Of a DNA stretch of 13,169 bases, positions 1 through 6,969 are shown piece by piece. Numbering within the stretch: the first letter of the stretch is position 1; each line of letters starts with the position of its first letter. The stretch is from positions 1 through 13,169 of the forward strand of contig JAIMZO010000019.1 of NCBI GenBank assembly GCA_020054965.1, in the 5' to 3' direction. A model generated the notes under the pieces. That model made no database searches and was not told where the DNA came from. It saw only the letters and a program-made list of their open reading frames with translations. Position numbers and translations under genes: made by a program. The stretch comes from Spirochaeta sp. (GTDB lineage: Bacteria; Spirochaetota; Spirochaetia; Sphaerochaetales; Sphaerochaetaceae).

Positions 1-170
1 TTTCCCTGGCTGACCCCTCGTACGGTTTTCTCCAGTTTGTCCCCATACTGTACCCCTGCCTTGAGGAATACAAAGATGAGCCTCCTGATGTCCTTGTCTA
101 CCAGTCCCATGAGGATATCATGGTCTACGGTATCGAAGTATCTGGAAAGGTCGAGATCCACCAAGGAATG
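1..170 (-). pseudogene. Group II intron reverse transcriptase/maturase fragment (ltrA-like)
   Basis: The minus-strand frame starting near 170 translates to HSLVDLDLSRYFDTVDHD, then a stretch ending LEKTVRGVSQG at the window edge. This is the fingers/palm part of a group II intron reverse transcriptase: the VDLDLxxYFDTVxHD block carries the first catalytic aspartate of the polymerase site, and GVSQG precedes the usual GPLSPLLANI motif, which would lie just outside. The helix between DILM and RRLIFVFLKAG looks a few residues shorter than in relatives. The N-terminal hundred or so residues that should precede this block are absent, because domain I RNA sequence abuts it. There is no start codon or ribosome binding site at the join. 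Whether the frame stays open to the left cannot be seen. Confidence 0.75.
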
Positions 171-325
171 CCTTAGGGGATTTCTGTTCGTCAGGCCGGA
201 AATTTGCCACCGGCTTTCTTCAGATTCCTCCTCACGGGGGACACCCTTGCCATTGGCTAGGTACTTGGCGCTATCACCTGTACTTGGGACTTTCACCCTT
301 TAGAAAATGTTCATACCGAGCGCAC
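1..325 (-). mobile_element. Group II intron remnant, 5' end (internally deleted, left end outside window)
   Basis: Read on the minus strand from 325, the sequence opens with GTGCGCTCGGTATGA, a good match to the conserved 5' end of bacterial group II introns. It continues with typical domain I blocks: GGGTGAAAGTCCC (about 292 down to 280), a CTAGCCAATGGCAAGGGTGTC-like block, AATCTGAAGAAAGC and CTGACGAACAGAAATCCC (near 180). In an intact intron several hundred more bases of domains I-III and the start of the domain IV reading frame would follow. Here the ribozyme text ends near 171-176 and runs at once into the middle of a reverse transcriptase, so a large internal deletion is inferred. The 5' splice junction lies 8 nt past a perfect terminator stem, the kind of place that class IIC introns use. 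The class itself is not proven. The ribozyme should be non-functional. Confidence 0.8.
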
Positions 326-360
326 AACCAAAAGGCCAGTGGTCGGGAAAACCACTGGCC
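326..360 (-). terminator. Rho-independent terminator (leftward)
   Basis: A perfect 10-bp stem, GGCCAGTGGT (334-343) with ACCACTGGCC (351-360), has a 7-nt loop. On the minus strand it is followed by TTTTGGTT (333 to 326), after which the group II intron begins. The U-tract is only on the minus-strand side, so it ends leftward transcription. No leftward protein gene lies upstream; the only candidate it could serve is the predicted small RNA. Confidence 0.75.
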
Positions 361-535
361 CAAGGGAGTCGCGTTGTTTGGCAGTAAAAGTAAAACCAAG
401 ATGTAGTACCGGACAATCGCGTAAGAGAAAAATACCCAACATCAAGTAGATCAAAGCAGTAGGACATCGCTGGGACTGAAGGGCTTTATCCCTGCCAGCA
501 ACCTTCTATTCTTCTCCTAATCATATCCCTTCCTA
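326..535 (-). ncRNA. Predicted structured small RNA, about 210 nt, 6S-like rod
   Basis: No convincing reading frame exists here, but on the minus strand the interval lies between a sigma70-type promoter and a strong terminator. The transcript can fold into nested complementary arms: 526-531 with 362-367 (AAGGGA/UCCCUU), 499-502 with 373-376 (GUUG/CAAC), 492-497 with 379-384 (UGGCAG/CUGCCA), 471-473 with 396-398, 464-468 with 400-404 (GAUGU/ACAUC) and 457-461 with 407-411 (UACUG/CGGUA). They are all collinear, giving one long interrupted hairpin with a large internal loop between 474-491 and 385-395; the 5' side of the loop holds a small AGGG/CCCU hairpin. Length, rod shape, internal bubble and own terminator resemble 6S RNA, but I cannot recognise a 6S consensus by eye. 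It lacks the hallmarks of RNase P, SRP or tmRNA. The family assignment is inference. Confidence 0.5.
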
Positions 536-541
536 GGTACA

Positions 542-571
542 AGCATATGCCGGAATGTCTGAAATTGTCAA
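542..571 (-). promoter_or_regulatory. Sigma70-type promoter for the predicted small RNA
   Basis: On the minus strand a perfect -35 TTGACA (571 to 566) is separated by 18 nt from TATGCT (547 to 542), which matches four of six -10 positions. The start point would be near 535. Reading leftward it meets the terminator about 200 nt later with no protein gene between. Confidence 0.55.
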
Positions 572-774
572 TATACCTATGGATTATACTATTTGCATAT
601 ATAAATTTATCGATTTTCTTTAGCACTATTTATTTACTGGAAAAAAAGTACTTGATCCTGTCAGAACATACCCCGATTTTTATGTAAAATTTGCAGGTTC
701 TTGGTTATCTCCAAATTTTTCACTTTCAACTATGTCATGGCGGAAAAATAATTCACTCTTTTTTTATCTACATA
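572..774. other. AT-rich intergenic stretch, no gene recognised
   Basis: This stretch lies between the leftward small-RNA promoter and the rightward MarR promoter. It is strongly AT-rich with several A and T runs. I see no reading frame, tRNA or clear hairpin in it. It may serve as upstream promoter DNA for both directions. Confidence 0.5.
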
Positions 775-802
775 TTGACCAAAAAAAGCCTTTCCTTATA
801 TA
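775..802 (+). promoter_or_regulatory. Promoter of the marR-like/persulfide reductase operon
   Basis: TTGACC (775-780) is spaced 16 nt from TATATA (797-802), close to the sigma70 consensus. The predicted start, around 809-812, falls at the left edge of the palindrome at 811-825. Confidence 0.6.
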
Positions 803-810
803 TTTGATTA

Positions 811-825
811 TAGCAATTATTGCTA
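811..825. promoter_or_regulatory. Palindromic operator, probable MarR-family binding site
   Basis: TAGCAATTATTGCTA is a perfect inverted repeat with 7-bp arms around a single central T. It sits at the predicted transcription start of the operon, 26 nt before the marR-like start codon. MarR-family repressors typically bind AT-rich palindromes of this size in their own promoters, so autorepression is inferred. Confidence 0.6.
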
Positions 826-850
826 AATAAAATTACTCATGGAGGTTTGC

Positions 851-1207
851 ATGATTGATCTCTGCGCCATCCGAAAGCTGCAGACTTCCCTTCGCTACTT
901 CGAAGACCAGCTGAAGCAGCAAACAGGACTCTCTTTCAATGATGCCTTGTTGCTGTGTGCTGTAAACAAGGGAATCTGCGAACCCAGTGCCTTGGCAAAG
1001 GAACTGGAACTTTCCCCATCCCGGCTTACCCGTATCTTGGATAGTCTGGAGAAACGTAAACTTGTTCAGAGAACCTTGAGTATCATGGATCGAAGAAGCC
1101 TTACCGTTGCCCTGACCGAAACAGGCAGTGAAATGGTACAAACCTATAGTTGTTCTGAACTCAACCTTCCGAACGAACTACAGTTCACTCAGTCACCCAC
1201 CACCTAG
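851..1207 (+). CDS. MarR-family transcriptional regulator (short, cysteine-containing)
   Basis: This is a 118-residue winged-helix regulator. The ATG at 851 is chosen because GGAGGT (841-846) is well spaced before it; an upstream in-frame ATG at 839 overlaps that site. The recognition region reads SALAKELELSPSRLTRILDSLEKRKLV (residues 46-72), followed by the MarR wing with the conserved DRR (80-82) and LTETG. The protein is shorter than the usual 140-150 residues: the C-terminal dimerisation helices are cut down and replaced by a polar tail. Cysteines at 5, 36, 43 and 101 make thiol-based sensing possible, which would suit the next gene. Its stop codon overlaps the ribosome binding site of that gene, so the two form an operon. 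The effector is unknown. Confidence 0.85.
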   Translation: MIDLCAIRKLQTSLRYFEDQLKQQTGLSFNDALLLCAVNKGICEPSALAKELELSPSRLTRILDSLEKRKLVQRTLSIMDRRSLTVALTETGSEMVQTYSCSELNLPNELQFTQSPTT

Positions 1208-1215
1208 GAGAACCT

Positions 1216-3723
1216 ATGGAAAAGAAATATCTCATCATTGGAGGAGTCGCAGGAGGGGCAGGTACTGCCGCCAGACTCAGAAGACGGGATGAAAAAGCCC
1301 AAATCATCATGTTTGAACGCGGTGAATACATCAGCTATGCAAACTGCGGTCTGCCCTACTATGCCGGTAATGTGATAACCGAACGCTCCAGATTGTTTGT
1401 CATGACCCCTGACAAGTTCATGGAGTCGCTGAACGTGGAAGCCCGTATACAAAGTGAAGTTGTAAGGATTGATCGTGAAGCAAAGACTATCCACGTTAAA
1501 GACCTGAAACGGAATACGGAATACGATGAACGCTACGACGTACTCATCCTCTCCCCTGGGGCAAGCCCGGTAAAACCTCCCATCCCAGGGATAGAGCACC
1601 CGGCAATCATGTCTCTTCGATCTGTCAGCGATATTGATAGCATCAAGGAAAAAGTTGACAGTCCAACAACCAAACGTGCAGTGGTTGTAGGCGGTGGATT
1701 CATCGGCATCGAGATGGCAGAAAACCTGAAGGAGCGTGGCCTGCAGGTATCGGTGGTGGAAGCACTCGACCAAGTCATGAATATCATTGACTACGACATG
1801 GCAGCGGAAGTACAGCAACACCTCAGAGCAAAAGGGATCAATCTCTTCCTGAAGGATGGAGTAGCCTCCTTTGAGCATCATGGGTCACTGGTCAGCGTAC
1901 GATTGCAATCGGGAACCCTGATCGATGCAGATCTGGTAATCCTCTCCATTGGCGTGAGGCCCGATACCGCATTCCTCAAGGACTCAGGCATCGAACTTGC
2001 AAAGAATGGGGCGATCAAGGTAGATGAATATTTCACCACCAATGACAAGGACATCAGGGCAGTAGGTGACGCTATTGTCTTTGAAAGCCCGCTCTCAGGG
2101 AGCCCGGTCACCATCCCCCTCGCCGGCCCTGCAAACAAGCAAGCCCGTCTCTGTGCAGATAATATCGTGGATGGGAACAAGAAACCCTATACAGGGATCA
2201 TCGGTACCAGCATCGCAAAGATTTTTGACCTGACGGTTGCTTCCACCGGTCTGACCGAGAAAGGCTTGAAAGCTGCCTCTCTCCCCTATCGTTGTGCTAT
2301 CACCCATGTGGGCAATCATGCAGGATATTATCCCAATGTAAGACAGCTCTCCTTGAAAGTACTCTACCACCCAGAGACAGGAAAGATCTGGGGAGGGCAG
2401 TCCGTAGGATACGGTGGGGTCGACAAACGTATCGACGTCATCTCCGCTTTCATCGGGAAGGATGGTACGGTCTATGACCTGGCAGAATTCGAACAAGCCT
2501 ATGCACCTCCCTTCTCCAGTGCGAAGGATCCCGTGAACATGGTCGGCTTCATTGCCGTCAACGTCCTTGAAGGTATGAGCGACACCATCAGTTGGGATGA
2601 AGCAGAGGAGGCACGGAAAAACGGCACCTTCATGCTTGATGTAAGAAGTGAAGAGGAGTTTGAACTCGGTGCAATAGAAGGGGCTGTGAATATCCCCAAT
2701 ACCGATCTCCGTGACCGCTTGAAGGAAATCCCAAAGGACCGCGACATCATCCTTAACTGTGCCATGGGTCTGCGTGGCTACTTTGCCGAACGCATCCTTC
2801 GCCAGAATGGCTTTACCCGTGTAAGGAACCTCACGGGAGGCTTCAAGACCTATGACAGTGCAATGCGCGAACGTGAATTGCTTGAGCGTAAGACGGTACT
2901 GAGCATCAAGGAAGAGAGTGCAACAATCGACAATCTCAACGAAGATGGATCATTCCGCAGAAGGACAGAGAACAAGATCTTCAAGGTGGATGCCTGTGGA
3001 TTGCAATGCCCCGGTCCGATCATCCGGCTCAAGAAGGAAATGGACAACCTCGAAGAGGGGGACCGCATAATCATCAAGGCTTCCGACCCTGGTTTCGGTG
3101 TTGATGTACAATCCTGGAGCAAGCTCACCGGCAACAACCTTGTTTCGGTGACCACAACAGAAGGGGTTATTGAGGCCGTTGTTGAGAAGGGAAATGCAAA
3201 CATCTGCTCAATGCCTGATTCAGCAGGTGAAAAACCTGCCATCTGTGCCCCCGATAATGGTGCAACGATGGTTGTATTCTCCAATGACTTGGACAAGGCC
3301 CTCGCATCCTTCGTACTTGCAAATGGAGCTGCTGCCTCAGGAAAACAGGTAACCATGTTCTTCACCTTCTGGGGTTTGAGTGTACTACGCAAGAAAAACG
3401 CGCCACCAGTAAAGAAGGACTTCATGGGGAAGATGTTCTCCAGCATGCTTCCCAAGGGAATGGACAAGCTTGGACTCTCCAGCATGAATATGGGAGGATT
3501 GGGAGCAAAGATGATGAAAAGCCGCATGAAGAAGAAACATGTCGACCAAGTCACCCAGATGTTCCTGGATGCAAAGAGCTCAGGAGTCCGCATGGTGGCC
3601 TGCCAGATGTCTATGGATATCATGGGCATCACCAAAGAGGAACTGCTTGACGGCGTCGAGGTAGGAGGCGTTGCCACCTACATGGGTGCCGCATCTGGGA
3701 GCAAAGTCAATCTGTTTATCTGA
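1216..3723 (+). CDS. CoA-disulfide/persulfide reductase fused to rhodanese, TusA and DsrE-like domains
   Basis: An 835-residue cytoplasmic flavoprotein made of four sulfur-handling modules. Residues 1 to about 445 are a CoA-disulfide reductase-type FAD/NAD(P)H oxidoreductase: FAD loop GGVAGGAG (9-16), the single redox cysteine in YANCGLPY (Cys44), NAD(P) loop VVVGGGFIGIE (about 157-167), a GD motif near 283, then the dimerisation domain. Residues about 460-550 are a rhodanese domain with the CAMGLRG active loop (Cys515). Residues about 588-660 are TusA-like with the CPGP motif (Cys598). Residues about 672-835 are a DsrE/F-like domain with a cysteine at 796. Relatives with reductase plus rhodanese reduce CoA persulfide or polysulfide with NAD(P)H; TusA and DsrE domains relay persulfide sulfur. 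I infer sulfane-sulfur reduction or transfer. AGGAG at 1206-1210 places the start. It is probably under control of the MarR-like protein, 8 nt upstream. Confidence 0.9.
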   Translation: MEKKYLIIGGVAGGAGTAARLRRRDEKAQIIMFERGEYISYANCGLPYYAGNVITERSRLFVMTPDKFMESLNVEARIQSEVVRIDREAKTIHVKDLKRNTEYDERYDVLILSPGASPVKPPIPGIEHPAIMSLRSVSDIDSIKEKVDSPTTKRAVVVGGGFIGIEMAENLKERGLQVSVVEALDQVMNIIDYDMAAEVQQHLRAKGINLFLKDGVASFEHHGSLVSVRLQSGTLIDADLVILSIGVRPDTAFLKDSGIELAKNGAIKVDEYFTTNDKDIRAVGDAIVFESPLSGSPVTIPLAGPANKQARLCADNIVDGNKKPYTGIIGTSIAKIFDLTVASTGLTEKGLKAASLPYRCAITHVGNHAGYYPNVRQLSLKVLYHPETGKIWGGQSVGYGGVDKRIDVISAFIGKDGTVYDLAEFEQAYAPPFSSAKDPVNMVGFIAVNVLEGMSDTISWDEAEEARKNGTFMLDVRSEEEFELGAIEGAVNIPNTDLRDRLKEIPKDRDIILNCAMGLRGYFAERILRQNGFTRVRNLTGGFKTYDSAMRERELLERKTVLSIKEESATIDNLNEDGSFRRRTENKIFKVDACGLQCPGPIIRLKKEMDNLEEGDRIIIKASDPGFGVDVQSWSKLTGNNLVSVTTTEGVIEAVVEKGNANICSMPDSAGEKPAICAPDNGATMVVFSNDLDKALASFVLANGAAASGKQVTMFFTFWGLSVLRKKNAPPVKKDFMGKMFSSMLPKGMDKLGLSSMNMGGLGAKMMKSRMKKKHVDQVTQMFLDAKSSGVRMVACQMSMDIMGITKEELLDGVEVGGVATYMGAASGSKVNLFI

Positions 3724-5073: not shown

Positions 5074-5300
5074 TGACAACTCTCCCGCCTAAAGGCAGGG
5101 AGCTTCTTGGAAAGCATTCCCAAGAACTATTTCTGCTTCTACGATGTCGGGCTTCTTAGGCTCAAAGAGCGGTCGTCCACCATGTTCATCTCCACAGACG
5201 TTACTTTCCCGCAGTCCACGGGTACATGCCCAATCCCTCAGGTTCAAGCTGGCGTTCCTGTCACGTTCAACCAGCTTCCCGCAGGATGGGCAAATCCACT
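5074..5300 (-). ncRNA. Predicted omega RNA (TnpB guide RNA) scaffold region
   Basis: In IS200/IS605 elements the TnpB guide RNA is transcribed from the 3' end of tnpB through the right-end hairpin and continues into flanking DNA, which supplies the guide. By position, the scaffold here would be the last 200 or so bases of tnpB plus the hairpin at 5082-5102, with the guide starting at 5073. The 5' limit is a guess; no promoter was sought for it. Confidence 0.45.
5082..5102. repeat. IS right-end hairpin
   Basis: CTCCC GCC TAAA GGC A GGGAG folds into an 8-bp stem with one bulged A and a TAAA loop. The tnpB stop codon (TAG, complement of 5089-5091) lies within it. This structure is the usual right-end site for TnpA and forms the 3' scaffold part of the TnpB guide RNA. 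Confidence 0.75.
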
Positions 5301-6321
5301 CCCTGACAGATAGGGGTAAATTCATATATCTTGTTTTGCAAGTATTGCAAGTCTTCGAGGACGCGTAGAAGCGAGGTGCTAGCACGAAGCTCTTCCCTCT
5401 CTCCCTGCACTTCTGCTCCATCCTCATCCGGAAGAATCCAAACGAGGCATCGGATATGGACCCAGCCAGCTTGCGGTTCCTGACCATACCTTTGACATTG
5501 AGATCCTCCATGCACACGGCGTCGACTTGGTTGTCATCAACAATCATGCTTGTGGCTTTCTCAATCGTATCCTTCCTCTGGTTGGCAATCTTTTCATGAA
5601 TGCGGGCGACCCGTATCCTGGCCTTCGCCCTGTTCCTGGAGCCTTTGGCTTTCCGGCCTAGATCCCGCTGGAGCCTCGCCAGTTTCTTCTCCGATTCCGC
5701 CAGGTGCTTATGGTTCGGGAACTCCATGCCGTTGGAACATACGGCCAGGGTCTTGATACCAAGGTCGATACCGACTGTGGTTTCCCTCAGTATGGGTTTT
5801 TCGACCGGATAGGGGACTGCTGTGGTTTCCACCAGAACCCTGGCAAAGTACTTTCCACTTGGTTCCTTGACAATGGTGACCGTCCTGATTTCCCCCTTGA
5901 ACCTTCTATGGAATACACAGGGTACCAAACCGACCTTGGGAACATACAGCTCCTGCTTCTGGAAATCAACCTTGCAGTTCTGGGGACATTGGAAACTCTG
6001 GCGTTCGCTTCGTTTCCTGAACCTTGGAAAGCCCGCTTCCTTTCTCTGGAAGAAGTTCTTGTAAGCGGTGTCCAGATTCCTCGATGCCATCTGCAGGGCC
6101 TGGGAGTTGACCTCGCCAAGCCAGGGATAGGCTTTCTTGAGAATGCTTCTGATTCTCTTGTTGCATTCGAAGCAGGAGAGAGACTCCTTTCTCCTCTGGT
6201 AGGCCTTGATCCTCATCTCCAGAAGCTTGTTGTAAACAAAGCGCACACTACCGAATGTCCTGGCTAGAGACTGAATCTGGGACTCTTCGGGATATAGGCG
6301 ATAGGAATAGGTCTTTAACAT
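5089..6321 (-). CDS. tnpB: RNA-guided endonuclease TnpB family protein
   Basis: A 410-residue protein starting MLKTYSYRLYPEE, the usual TnpB N-terminus; an in-frame ATG six codons upstream (6339) is also possible, and neither has a clear ribosome binding site. The RuvC-like nuclease core is complete: Asp186 in VGIDLGIKTLAV, Glu272 in VCMEDLNVKGM, and Asp354 in ERDRNASLNL. The zinc ribbon between the last two has all four cysteines (325, 328, 344, 347; CNTC and CPSC). Spacing matches characterised TnpB of about 400 residues. Such proteins cut DNA next to a short transposon-adjacent motif under the guide RNA and help retain the element at donor sites. The protein appears intact and could be active. 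Confidence 0.93.
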   Translation of the reverse strand: MLKTYSYRLYPEESQIQSLARTFGSVRFVYNKLLEMRIKAYQRRKESLSCFECNKRIRSILKKAYPWLGEVNSQALQMASRNLDTAYKNFFQRKEAGFPRFRKRSERQSFQCPQNCKVDFQKQELYVPKVGLVPCVFHRRFKGEIRTVTIVKEPSGKYFARVLVETTAVPYPVEKPILRETTVGIDLGIKTLAVCSNGMEFPNHKHLAESEKKLARLQRDLGRKAKGSRNRAKARIRVARIHEKIANQRKDTIEKATSMIVDDNQVDAVCMEDLNVKGMVRNRKLAGSISDASFGFFRMRMEQKCRERGKSFVLAPRFYASSKTCNTCKTRYMNLPLSVREWICPSCGKLVERDRNASLNLRDWACTRGLRESNVCGDEHGGRPLFEPKKPDIVEAEIVLGNAFQEAPCL

Positions 6322-6417
6322 TATTACTAGTGCAATCATATATCATTCGATGCTGTTTTTCAAGTATGACGAAAGACAGATACACAAGTTCACATGCCGT
6401 TTATTCCCCAACGGAGC

Positions 6418-6450
6418 GAGAGGAAAGGAATCATCATGATGGTTCCTCTC
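6418..6450. repeat. Nested inverted repeat between tnpB and tnpA
   Basis: GAGAGGAA (6418-6425) pairs with TTCCTCTC (6443-6450) around a near-palindromic core containing CATCATGATG (6432-6441). GGAA at 6427-6430 could pair with the same TTCC, so alternative folds exist. Confidence 0.5.
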
Positions 6451-6484
6451 GGGAGCGAGTGCAGGGAAAGCAAGGTGAGATACC

Positions 6485-6520
6485 CCGTCCCTTGGGACGG
6501 AAAAGGAGGCAACGCCTCCT
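6485..6520. repeat. Two tandem perfect hairpins in the tnpA leader
   Basis: CCGTCCC TT GGGACGG (6485-6500) is followed after three A bases by AGGAGGC AAC GCCTCCT (6504-6520), both with perfect 7-bp stems. The second contains GGAGG, a Shine-Dalgarno-like sequence, paired to CCTCC. IS200 elements are known to hide the tnpA ribosome binding site in a leader hairpin; something similar is inferred, although the nearest tnpA coding sequence starts more than 20 nt further on. Confidence 0.5.
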
Positions 6521-6573
6521 GAGTTCAGCTCTTGCCCTGAGGTATTGATACCTTTCATTCCCTCTCCTGCCAC

Positions 6574-6969
6574 ATGGTCTTCTGTCCCAAATACCGAAGG
6601 CCCGTACTGGCTGGACTCGAGGATGAGATTGGGACATTGCTCTTGGAAAAGGCAAAGGAGCTGGATATCCAGGTGCCTGGGATGGAGATCATGCCGGAGC
6701 ATGTCCACCTGGTTGTATCCTCAACCCCCGCATATGCTCCGCAGTTCGTGGTCAACCAGCTCAAAGGGTTCACTTCCAGAACATTGAGGCAGAGGCATCA
6801 ATGGTTGAGGAGCAGACTGCCGACACTCTGGACCCGTTCCTATTACCTTGGCAGTGTGGGAGCGGTCTCGGCTGATACTGTTAGGAATTATACCACCAAT
6901 CAGAAAAAACGTATGAGCACTATCATCTCCCGCCTAAAGTCGGGTGTCTTCTCATGCTCTTTCTTATAA
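6574..6969 (+). CDS. tnpA: IS200/IS605-family transposase TnpA (Y1, HUH), start codon lost or non-canonical
   Basis: A small single-strand DNA transposase. Numbered from the ATG at 6574, the HUH motif is His43-Val-His45 (MPEHVHLVVS) and the candidate catalytic tyrosine is Tyr106 (VRNYTTNQKK); LPTLWTRSYYLGSVG is the typical late motif. Relatives have 10-20 residues before VFCPKYRR that form the first beta strand. In frame these are present (IDTFHSLSCH, from 6544), but no ATG, GTG or TTG precedes them: an ATT is at 6544 and a TGA stop at 6538. Starting at 6574 would lose that strand. The C-terminus also reads on through the left-end hairpin to a stop at 6967. The gene is either crippled or begins at ATT. 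GAGG at 6539-6542 is too close to 6544 to be a good binding site. Confidence 0.75.
   Translation: MVFCPKYRRPVLAGLEDEIGTLLLEKAKELDIQVPGMEIMPEHVHLVVSSTPAYAPQFVVNQLKGFTSRTLRQRHQWLRSRLPTLWTRSYYLGSVGAVSADTVRNYTTNQKKRMSTIISRLKSGVFSCSFL
6929..6944. repeat. IS left-end hairpin
   Basis: CCCG (6929-6932) and CGGG (6941-6944) enclose an 8-nt loop. The stem shares TCTCCCGCCTAAAG with the right-end hairpin. It lies within the 3' end of the tnpA reading frame. Confidence 0.6.

Follow-up and report, generated by a model that had tools for sequence, protein, structure and literature searches.

The locus raises two questions: whether the intergenic DNA between a divergent marR gene and a group II intron encodes an RNA of its own, and what such an RNA might do. 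The window, which is the whole 13,169-nucleotide stretch of DNA analysed, was placed in the genus Sphaerochaeta, as its oxidoreductase gene (1216–3723) shares 98% identity with that of Sphaerochaeta sp. S2. A first-pass annotation had proposed here a structured small RNA, undescribed and possibly lineage-specific, that has a promoter and a terminator of its own. Conservation, covariation and the lack of any Rfam match at the cut-off support this proposal, and sequence comparison identifies the family as an undescribed structured small RNA of Sphaerochaeta. The RNA is best read as the product of an independent regulatory gene, most likely acting in trans by antisense pairing, a reading to which we assign a probability of roughly 0.6.

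The RNA gene and its distribution

The small RNA is predicted on the minus strand (329–535). Its 5′ end, at approximately position 535, is derived from the −10 element and its 3′ end falls within the T run, giving a length of approximately 205 nt. The promoter consists of a −35 element TTGACA (566–571) and a −10 element TATGCT (542–547) separated by 18 bases, and the terminator is an intrinsic hairpin with a 12-pair stem (333–361); both signals, all on the minus strand, are present as initially annotated. Upstream of the promoter lies an AT-rich conserved element (GATAAATTTATATA...GTATA; 585–612, minus strand), a putative UP element or activator site.

Within the first 3 kb, promoter-like sites (6 seen, 4.1 expected from shuffled sequence) and terminator-like sites (1 seen, 3.1 expected) occur at chance level, and the single-sequence fold of 535–326 (−67.2 kcal/mol, z −2.42) is moderately unusual, being equalled by 2 of 200 shuffles. 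A single sequence is therefore no proof of a gene, and the proof comes from the relatives. The combination of features had been called hard to explain as chance; promoter and terminator taken alone do not exceed chance, and conservation in relatives settles that the gene is real.

The promoter pattern (TTGACAAT and TAT[GC]CT) was matched at 15/15 loci (14 genomes and the window), with either TATGCT or TATCCT as the −10 element. The −35 element reads TTGACA in G011 and TTGACT in G024. By sequence, the gene therefore has the independent promoter and terminator expected of trans-acting base-pairing sRNAs, the promoter being weaker in G015 and G020, where it was read by eye as TTGACT-N17-CATGCT, matches 8 of 12 positions, and ranks second in the scan for G020 and outside the top three for G015. 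The AT-rich element is recognizable in 17 aligned upstream regions, including that of G024, in which the RNA occupies another locus. In five relatives, identity is 62–97% over the RNA and falls to 24–52% below the terminator (300–328); on the promoter side it is 78–96% over 576–625 and 51–85% over 626–760.

Homologues of the RNA were identified in 18 of 26 Sphaerochaeta genomes, two of the 18 being weak but syntenic. Searches with blastn matched 14 of the 26. A first covariance model, built from 13 sequences, added G011 (E 3.2e-21) and G024 (E 2.6e-18), both outside its training set; these E-values are rough by construction. This model was scanned against 139 genomes of the family, 19 of which gave any match at E up to 0.1, and against the 26 of the genus, where neither G015 nor G020 was matched at E up to 1. 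A second model, run with filters off on eight marR loci, scored 23.6 bits in G015 and 25.7 bits in G020; both matches occupy the corresponding position next to marR, are divergent to it and end in a terminator hairpin. An order-wide scan (139 genomes) returned 17 genomes matching at E up to 0.01, comprising 16 already known and G053. As G015 and G020 were not among them, distant members can escape detection, and absence elsewhere is to be read as soft.

Several other matches were set aside. The G053 match (20.5 bits) spans the beginning of a long open reading frame, the second matches of G016 and G024 and the match in G010 are terminator-only hairpins, and those on contigs G011:C78 and G025:C40 are confined to the ends of the closing stem P1 and the terminator. 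The genus scan also lists second matches in G009, G023, G017 and G002 and matches in G014 and G022, and the family scan lists further weak ones in G099 (22.6 bits), G087 (19.9 bits) and G033 (13.5 bits). No score above 10.9 bits was obtained at six loci that surround oxidoreductases of more distant relationship. The RNA was not found around marR in G010, G014, G021 and G022 (in G014 by model search alone); in G025 the contig ends before the RNA position next to marR, and G012, G013 and G018 gave no marR match.

Rfam 15 contains no family that reaches its gathering threshold over the RNA, the sole match in the window being RF02001 in the intron. At E up to 10, sub-threshold matches fall over the terminator (mir-7180, 15.3 bits, cut-off 78) and the promoter (sroH, 10.5 bits, cut-off 80). 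Six homologue loci searched at E up to 1 gave nothing above threshold; the terminator of G024 is overlapped, on its opposite strand, by a sub-threshold P26 match (24.4 bits against a cut-off of 36). No earlier report of Sphaerochaeta small RNAs was found in the literature searched, which included PMC8632094 and mostly lay outside subscription journals.

Fold, covariation and coding potential

Comparative analysis of the sequences supports a branched fold, in which a closing stem, P1, is followed by a P2 arm with the two branches P2a and P2b, then by a P3 arm and by the terminator hairpin (all strands minus). P1 is formed by AAGGGA (526–531) and UCCCUU (362–367) and is paired in 100% of cells in a MAFFT alignment (A5) and in 97% in a 17-sequence model alignment. 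P2 (507–517 with 424–434) has 95.7% of cells paired and 6 of 11 pairs changed on both sides; P2a, formed by GAAGG (502–506) and CCUUC (478–482), has 96.5% of cells paired and 2 of 5 pairs so changed. In the terminator hairpin, 100% of cells are paired, and 3 of 11 pairs have changed on both sides. P3, in which 413–421 pairs with CAACGCG (370–376), is paired in 81.2% of cells, its register lying one base apart between clades.

P2b joins CCCAGCG (468–474) to UGUUGGG (435–441). In the model alignment, where its register is shifted for some clades, 74.1% of its cells are paired; with the register set by hand, pairs form in 72 of 77 cells across 11 of the 19 sequences, and U-A, C-G, G-C and U-G pairs occur at positions that are C-G or G-U in the window. 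The hand count left out near copies (G005, G016, G023, G026 and G027) and sequences with no clear register (G011, G015 and G020). Picking helix strands by hand favours pairing, both in this count and in the four most distant members. In the latter, hand-picked P2 strands pair at 9/10 positions in G020, 8/10 in G015 and 10/10 in G024, P3 pairs at 7/7 in G011, and the terminators pair fully. P1 is imperfect in G011 and was not found as modelled in G015 and G020, and the lowest-energy fold of G015 departs from the family fold. Conservation of the longest loop stretches does not extend beyond individual clades.

The model alignment (A9, the 17 sequences then known) was fitted to the covariance model and leans towards it; 92.6% of its cells are in standard pairs, versus 44–55% when the partners are slid. 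Sixteen pairs have changed on both sides, involving 46 cells, and 0/500 shuffles reach either figure. Alignment A5, which comprises 13 of 15 sequences after removal of the near copies G016 and G028, gave 93.1% paired cells and 10 such pairs in 27 cells, again with 0/500 shuffles; in the number of further pair types, 17/500 shuffles were as good. Since shuffling ignores relatedness, these counts are not probabilities. The second, terminator-only copy in G016 was excluded from later alignments.

The RNA had been drawn as six collinear arms forming one long rod. Covariation supports the branched fold instead, and the compensatory changes to be looked for in aligned homologues are present in 16 pairs (0/500 shuffles). 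Four of the grounds for doubt named by the first-pass annotation (no covariation, poor conservation, a decayed gene, or part of a mobile element) were each checked, and the RNA passes on all of them.

The statement that the region holds no credible protein frame agrees with the alignment, as close relatives are separated by one-base indels. For instance, the window, G001 and G027 lack one base at column 36 of A5, and a further base is missing from G001 at column 127. In 15/15 sequences, a Shine-Dalgarno-like AGGAAGGGA precedes an ATG (AAGAAGGGA in G004; GTG in G011, read by eye) and opens a tiny reading frame (534–486, minus strand, in the window), the length of which varies from 8 to 34 codons among relatives. 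Pairing between the conserved UG and C(A/G) could extend P1 (columns 14–15 with 175–176), and this pairing probably explains the conservation of the motif. Given the frame breaks and the P1 extension, the tiny frame was rejected as a coding sequence.

Proposed mode of action and candidate partners

In the antisense reading, a vegetative-type promoter aided by the AT-rich upstream element would direct a transcript of approximately 205 nt that ends at the intrinsic terminator and folds into P1, P2 with its P2a and P2b branches, P3 and the terminator hairpin. The folded RNA would display single-stranded pyrimidine motifs, namely UUCCC in the terminator loop and CUAC/CUGC repeats in the P2b and P3 loops, which could pair in trans with purine-rich stretches of mRNAs, such as ribosome-binding sites. 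Such action would proceed without Hfq, CsrA or ProQ, perhaps with KhpA/B. A GGGA within P2a is complementary to the UCCC of the terminator loop and may mask this loop or lock the fold.

Both motifs, UCCC (345–348) and GGGA (489–492, both minus strand), are invariant in 19/19 sequences. UCCC has a predicted unpaired probability of 0.93–1.0 in 17/17 sequences. In G015, G020 and G024, the terminator stem has other letters, yet the loop keeps its UCCC, a pattern that suggests the loop is under selection for more than termination alone. For GGGA, the predicted unpaired probability is 0.92–1.0 in G003, G016 and G019, 0.47 in G024 and 0.07–0.30 in the other 13 sequences, including the window. The two motifs can pair over 4–7 bases. 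Because this core never varies, covariation cannot test the contact, and as GGGA is moreover mostly paired in 13/17 sequences, we offer the GGGA–UCCC contact as a proposal. The motif CT[AG]C, which was selected following a k-mer scan, is in excess within individual RNAs, with P of 0.02 or less in 15/17 homologues, which are not independent of one another; the excess is not significant in G019 and G024. Its copies recur mainly in the P2b and P3 loops.

Searches of six RNA-bearing genomes, the completeness of which is unstated, found Hfq (PF17209) and ProQ (PF04352) in 0/6 at E up to 0.001; both searches match in an E. coli control. The hfq or proQ gene that marks Hfq/ProQ-dependent sRNAs was therefore not found in these genomes. 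CsrA (PF02599) was likewise found in 0/6. KhpA/B-type KH domains are present in 6/6 (six of the 18 RNA-bearing genomes). A defined gene with a testable fold, in bacteria in which the usual chaperones were not found, offers a handle on how small RNAs function there.

RNAIII and RsaA of Staphylococcus are Hfq-independent sRNAs with C-rich loops that bind Shine-Dalgarno sequences. The Sphaerochaeta RNA resembles them in two respects: the apical loop of its terminator carries UUCCC or UCCC, and several pyrimidine loops are exposed. In contrast, its architecture differs, and the likeness to RNAIII and RsaA (for the latter, see PMC3961350) is one of motif description.

A more specific version of the antisense reading can be held only tentatively. 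It takes the family as a new class of riboregulators confined to Sphaerochaeta and working without Hfq, CsrA or ProQ, in which the terminator hairpin would be the active part, its UCCC either latched by GGGA or seizing ribosome-binding sites, with KhpA/B possibly serving as a chaperone.

We judge antisense regulation the most likely role, followed by a structural or protein-binding role and then by that of a leader. As a protein-binding RNA, it would serve as a ribonucleoprotein scaffold, or as a sponge for an RNA-binding protein, rather than as an antisense regulator. In favour of this role, the RNA has a branched fold under structural selection with repeated loop motifs, as protein-titrating RNAs do, and KhpA/B-type proteins are present in the six genomes in which Hfq, CsrA and ProQ were not found. 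A CsrA sponge, suspected from GGGA, was rejected: GGA, the core motif of CsrA, is in excess (P below 0.05) in only 2/17 members (G016 and G019), and csrA was found in 0/6 genomes. These results also weigh against a protein-binding role in general, which we regard as doubtful.

Neighbouring genes, 6S RNA and mobile DNA

Divergent to the RNA are a gene for a MarR-family regulator (839–1207, plus strand; Pfam MarR_2, 5.9e-9) and, behind it, the oxidoreductase gene (plus strand), which encodes a pyridine nucleotide-disulphide oxidoreductase–rhodanese–TusA–DsrE fusion. The divergent marR gene adjoins the RNA in 17/18 RNA-bearing genomes; in G024, the RNA lies on another contig with its AT-rich upstream element and no marR. 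The stretch preceding marR in the window (761–835) is conserved and contains an imperfect palindrome, AGCAATAATTGCT and TTTTTATCTACATATTGACC; it is probably a MarR operator and promoter. Sub-threshold matches to RF02819 (V_AS7) were recorded outside the RNA at three loci (L093 2376–2544, L087 2411–2579 and L090 640–808), which by position correspond to the region of the oxidoreductase gene.

Genes downstream of the terminator, named by eye, include DctPQM or DctQM TRAP transporters, an SGNH hydrolase, GntR and a transposase. Like attenuator and riboswitch leaders, the RNA is long, structured, terminated by a hairpin and often located upstream of a gene on the same strand. As a cis-acting leader, it would control the next gene, ancestrally the SGNH hydrolase, through its terminator. 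The first reading frame to lie entirely beyond the terminator shares the strand of the RNA in 14/14 genomes and in G015 (15/18; in G003, the SGNH start was read by eye), and an SGNH-like gene follows the terminator after 35 nt in G003, 86 nt in G002 and approximately 70 nt in G015. In the gaps of G003 and G002, no promoter-like site is better than 7 of 12. With the SGNH-like gene this close to the terminator, there is room for read-through in G002, G003 and G015. In contrast to such leaders, the RNA precedes unrelated genes, so that no same-strand downstream gene of consistent function was found, and the downstream gene appears convergent, judging from long reading frames, in three lineages (G011, G020 and G024). 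Promoter-like sites of at least 9 of 12 occur in 11/13 gaps, a count that has no shuffle control and leaves out G028 and G015. Given that the downstream genes differ and appear convergent in three lineages, a leader role is unlikely. Genomic comparison establishes instead that the RNA is autonomous from its neighbours, being retained with different downstream genes, with apparently convergent genes and, in G024, at another locus.

An independent regulatory RNA gene remains the preferred reading. The first-pass annotation had likened its product to 6S RNA, an unbranched rod with a large central bubble, which would imply binding to the RNA polymerase holoenzyme. The two are similar in length (approximately 200 nt), in being structured stand-alone genes with one full copy per genome, and in having long imperfect helices. 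However, no RF00013 match was obtained in the window (1–900, E up to 10) or at six homologue loci (E up to 1), the fold is branched, with P2, P2a, P2b and P3 covarying, and a separate full-length 6S-like match occurs elsewhere in 7/7 genomes. The resemblance accordingly does not hold, and we consider 6S function very improbable.

The separate 6S-like matches score 28.2–55.9 bits in the seven genomes, one of which (G006) exceeds the Rfam gathering cut-off; those of the RNA-bearing G001–G005 score 28.2–44.5 bits, below it. In a control for RF00013, 8/14 genomes matched at the same E limit, four of them over the cut-off, and one of the eight is an archaeon, so sub-threshold 6S matches need care. 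The 6S-like sequences of five RNA-bearing genomes align closely and share the closing stem CUGCGGUG...CACCGCAG; the G007 row of this alignment is the whole locus and is uninformative on the 6S RNA of G007. As six of the seven 6S-like RNAs (L044–L050) score below the cut-off, annotation pipelines may miss them.

The terminator is directly followed by the 5′ part of a group II intron (1–325, minus strand), which matches RF02001 at 241–80 (54.1 bits) and runs off the window. Its 5′ end was set at 325, since matches in G026 (98%), G008 and other genomes start at the first query base. Some match to 325–1 is held by 13/26 genomes of the genus. Query parts 1–170 and 165–325 match different places, so this copy has lost internal sequence or the contig is misjoined at that point. 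A 56-codon frame in the intron matches no Pfam family and looks reverse-transcriptase-like by eye; the 5′ part would thus be joined to a reverse-transcriptase-like part across a large internal deletion or a misjoin. A hairpin lies directly upstream of the intron in the window and in three relatives' copies with the start motif, out of six loci given, three of which lack this motif.

From its insertion site and 5′ sequence, we take the intron to be of class IIC. Insertion after an intrinsic terminator is typical of group IIC introns, according to PMC12350094, which cites Robart 2007. Consistent with this class, the copy combines a match to the D1–D4 model with a position directly downstream of an intrinsic terminator; unlike intact group IIC introns, it has an internal deletion or a misjoin and extends past the edge of the window. 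In relatives, the RNA occurs with no intron next to it. As the intron starts at 325, after the terminator, and its copies follow other hairpins, the terminator is its target site, and the intron is not the source of the RNA. Least probable of all is the reading that the locus comprises chance intergenic features, a decayed gene or a piece of the mobile element. In its favour, promoter-like and terminator-like sites are no more frequent than by chance and a mobile intron abuts the terminator. Against it, the RNA is conserved and covaries, the 5′ end of the intron is at 325 with three copies elsewhere following other hairpins, and neither a blastn search of plasmids and phages with the RNA nor a search of viral contigs with the terminator pattern gave a match.

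The terminator of this small RNA has become a landing site for both mobile and metabolic DNA. In G016 (L073), a 5.3-kb insert carrying GntR and TRAP-transporter genes lies between two identical terminator copies (10531–10493 and 5215–5177; 39 bp matched), and an SGNH-like gene follows the second copy, as in G003; on this sequence arrangement, the terminator is a site of recombination or insertion. Elsewhere in the window, an IS200/IS605-type element (5089–6969) encodes an OrfB/TnpB-like protein (5089–6339, minus strand) and a Y1 transposase (6574–6969, plus strand), the reading frames of which are both open.
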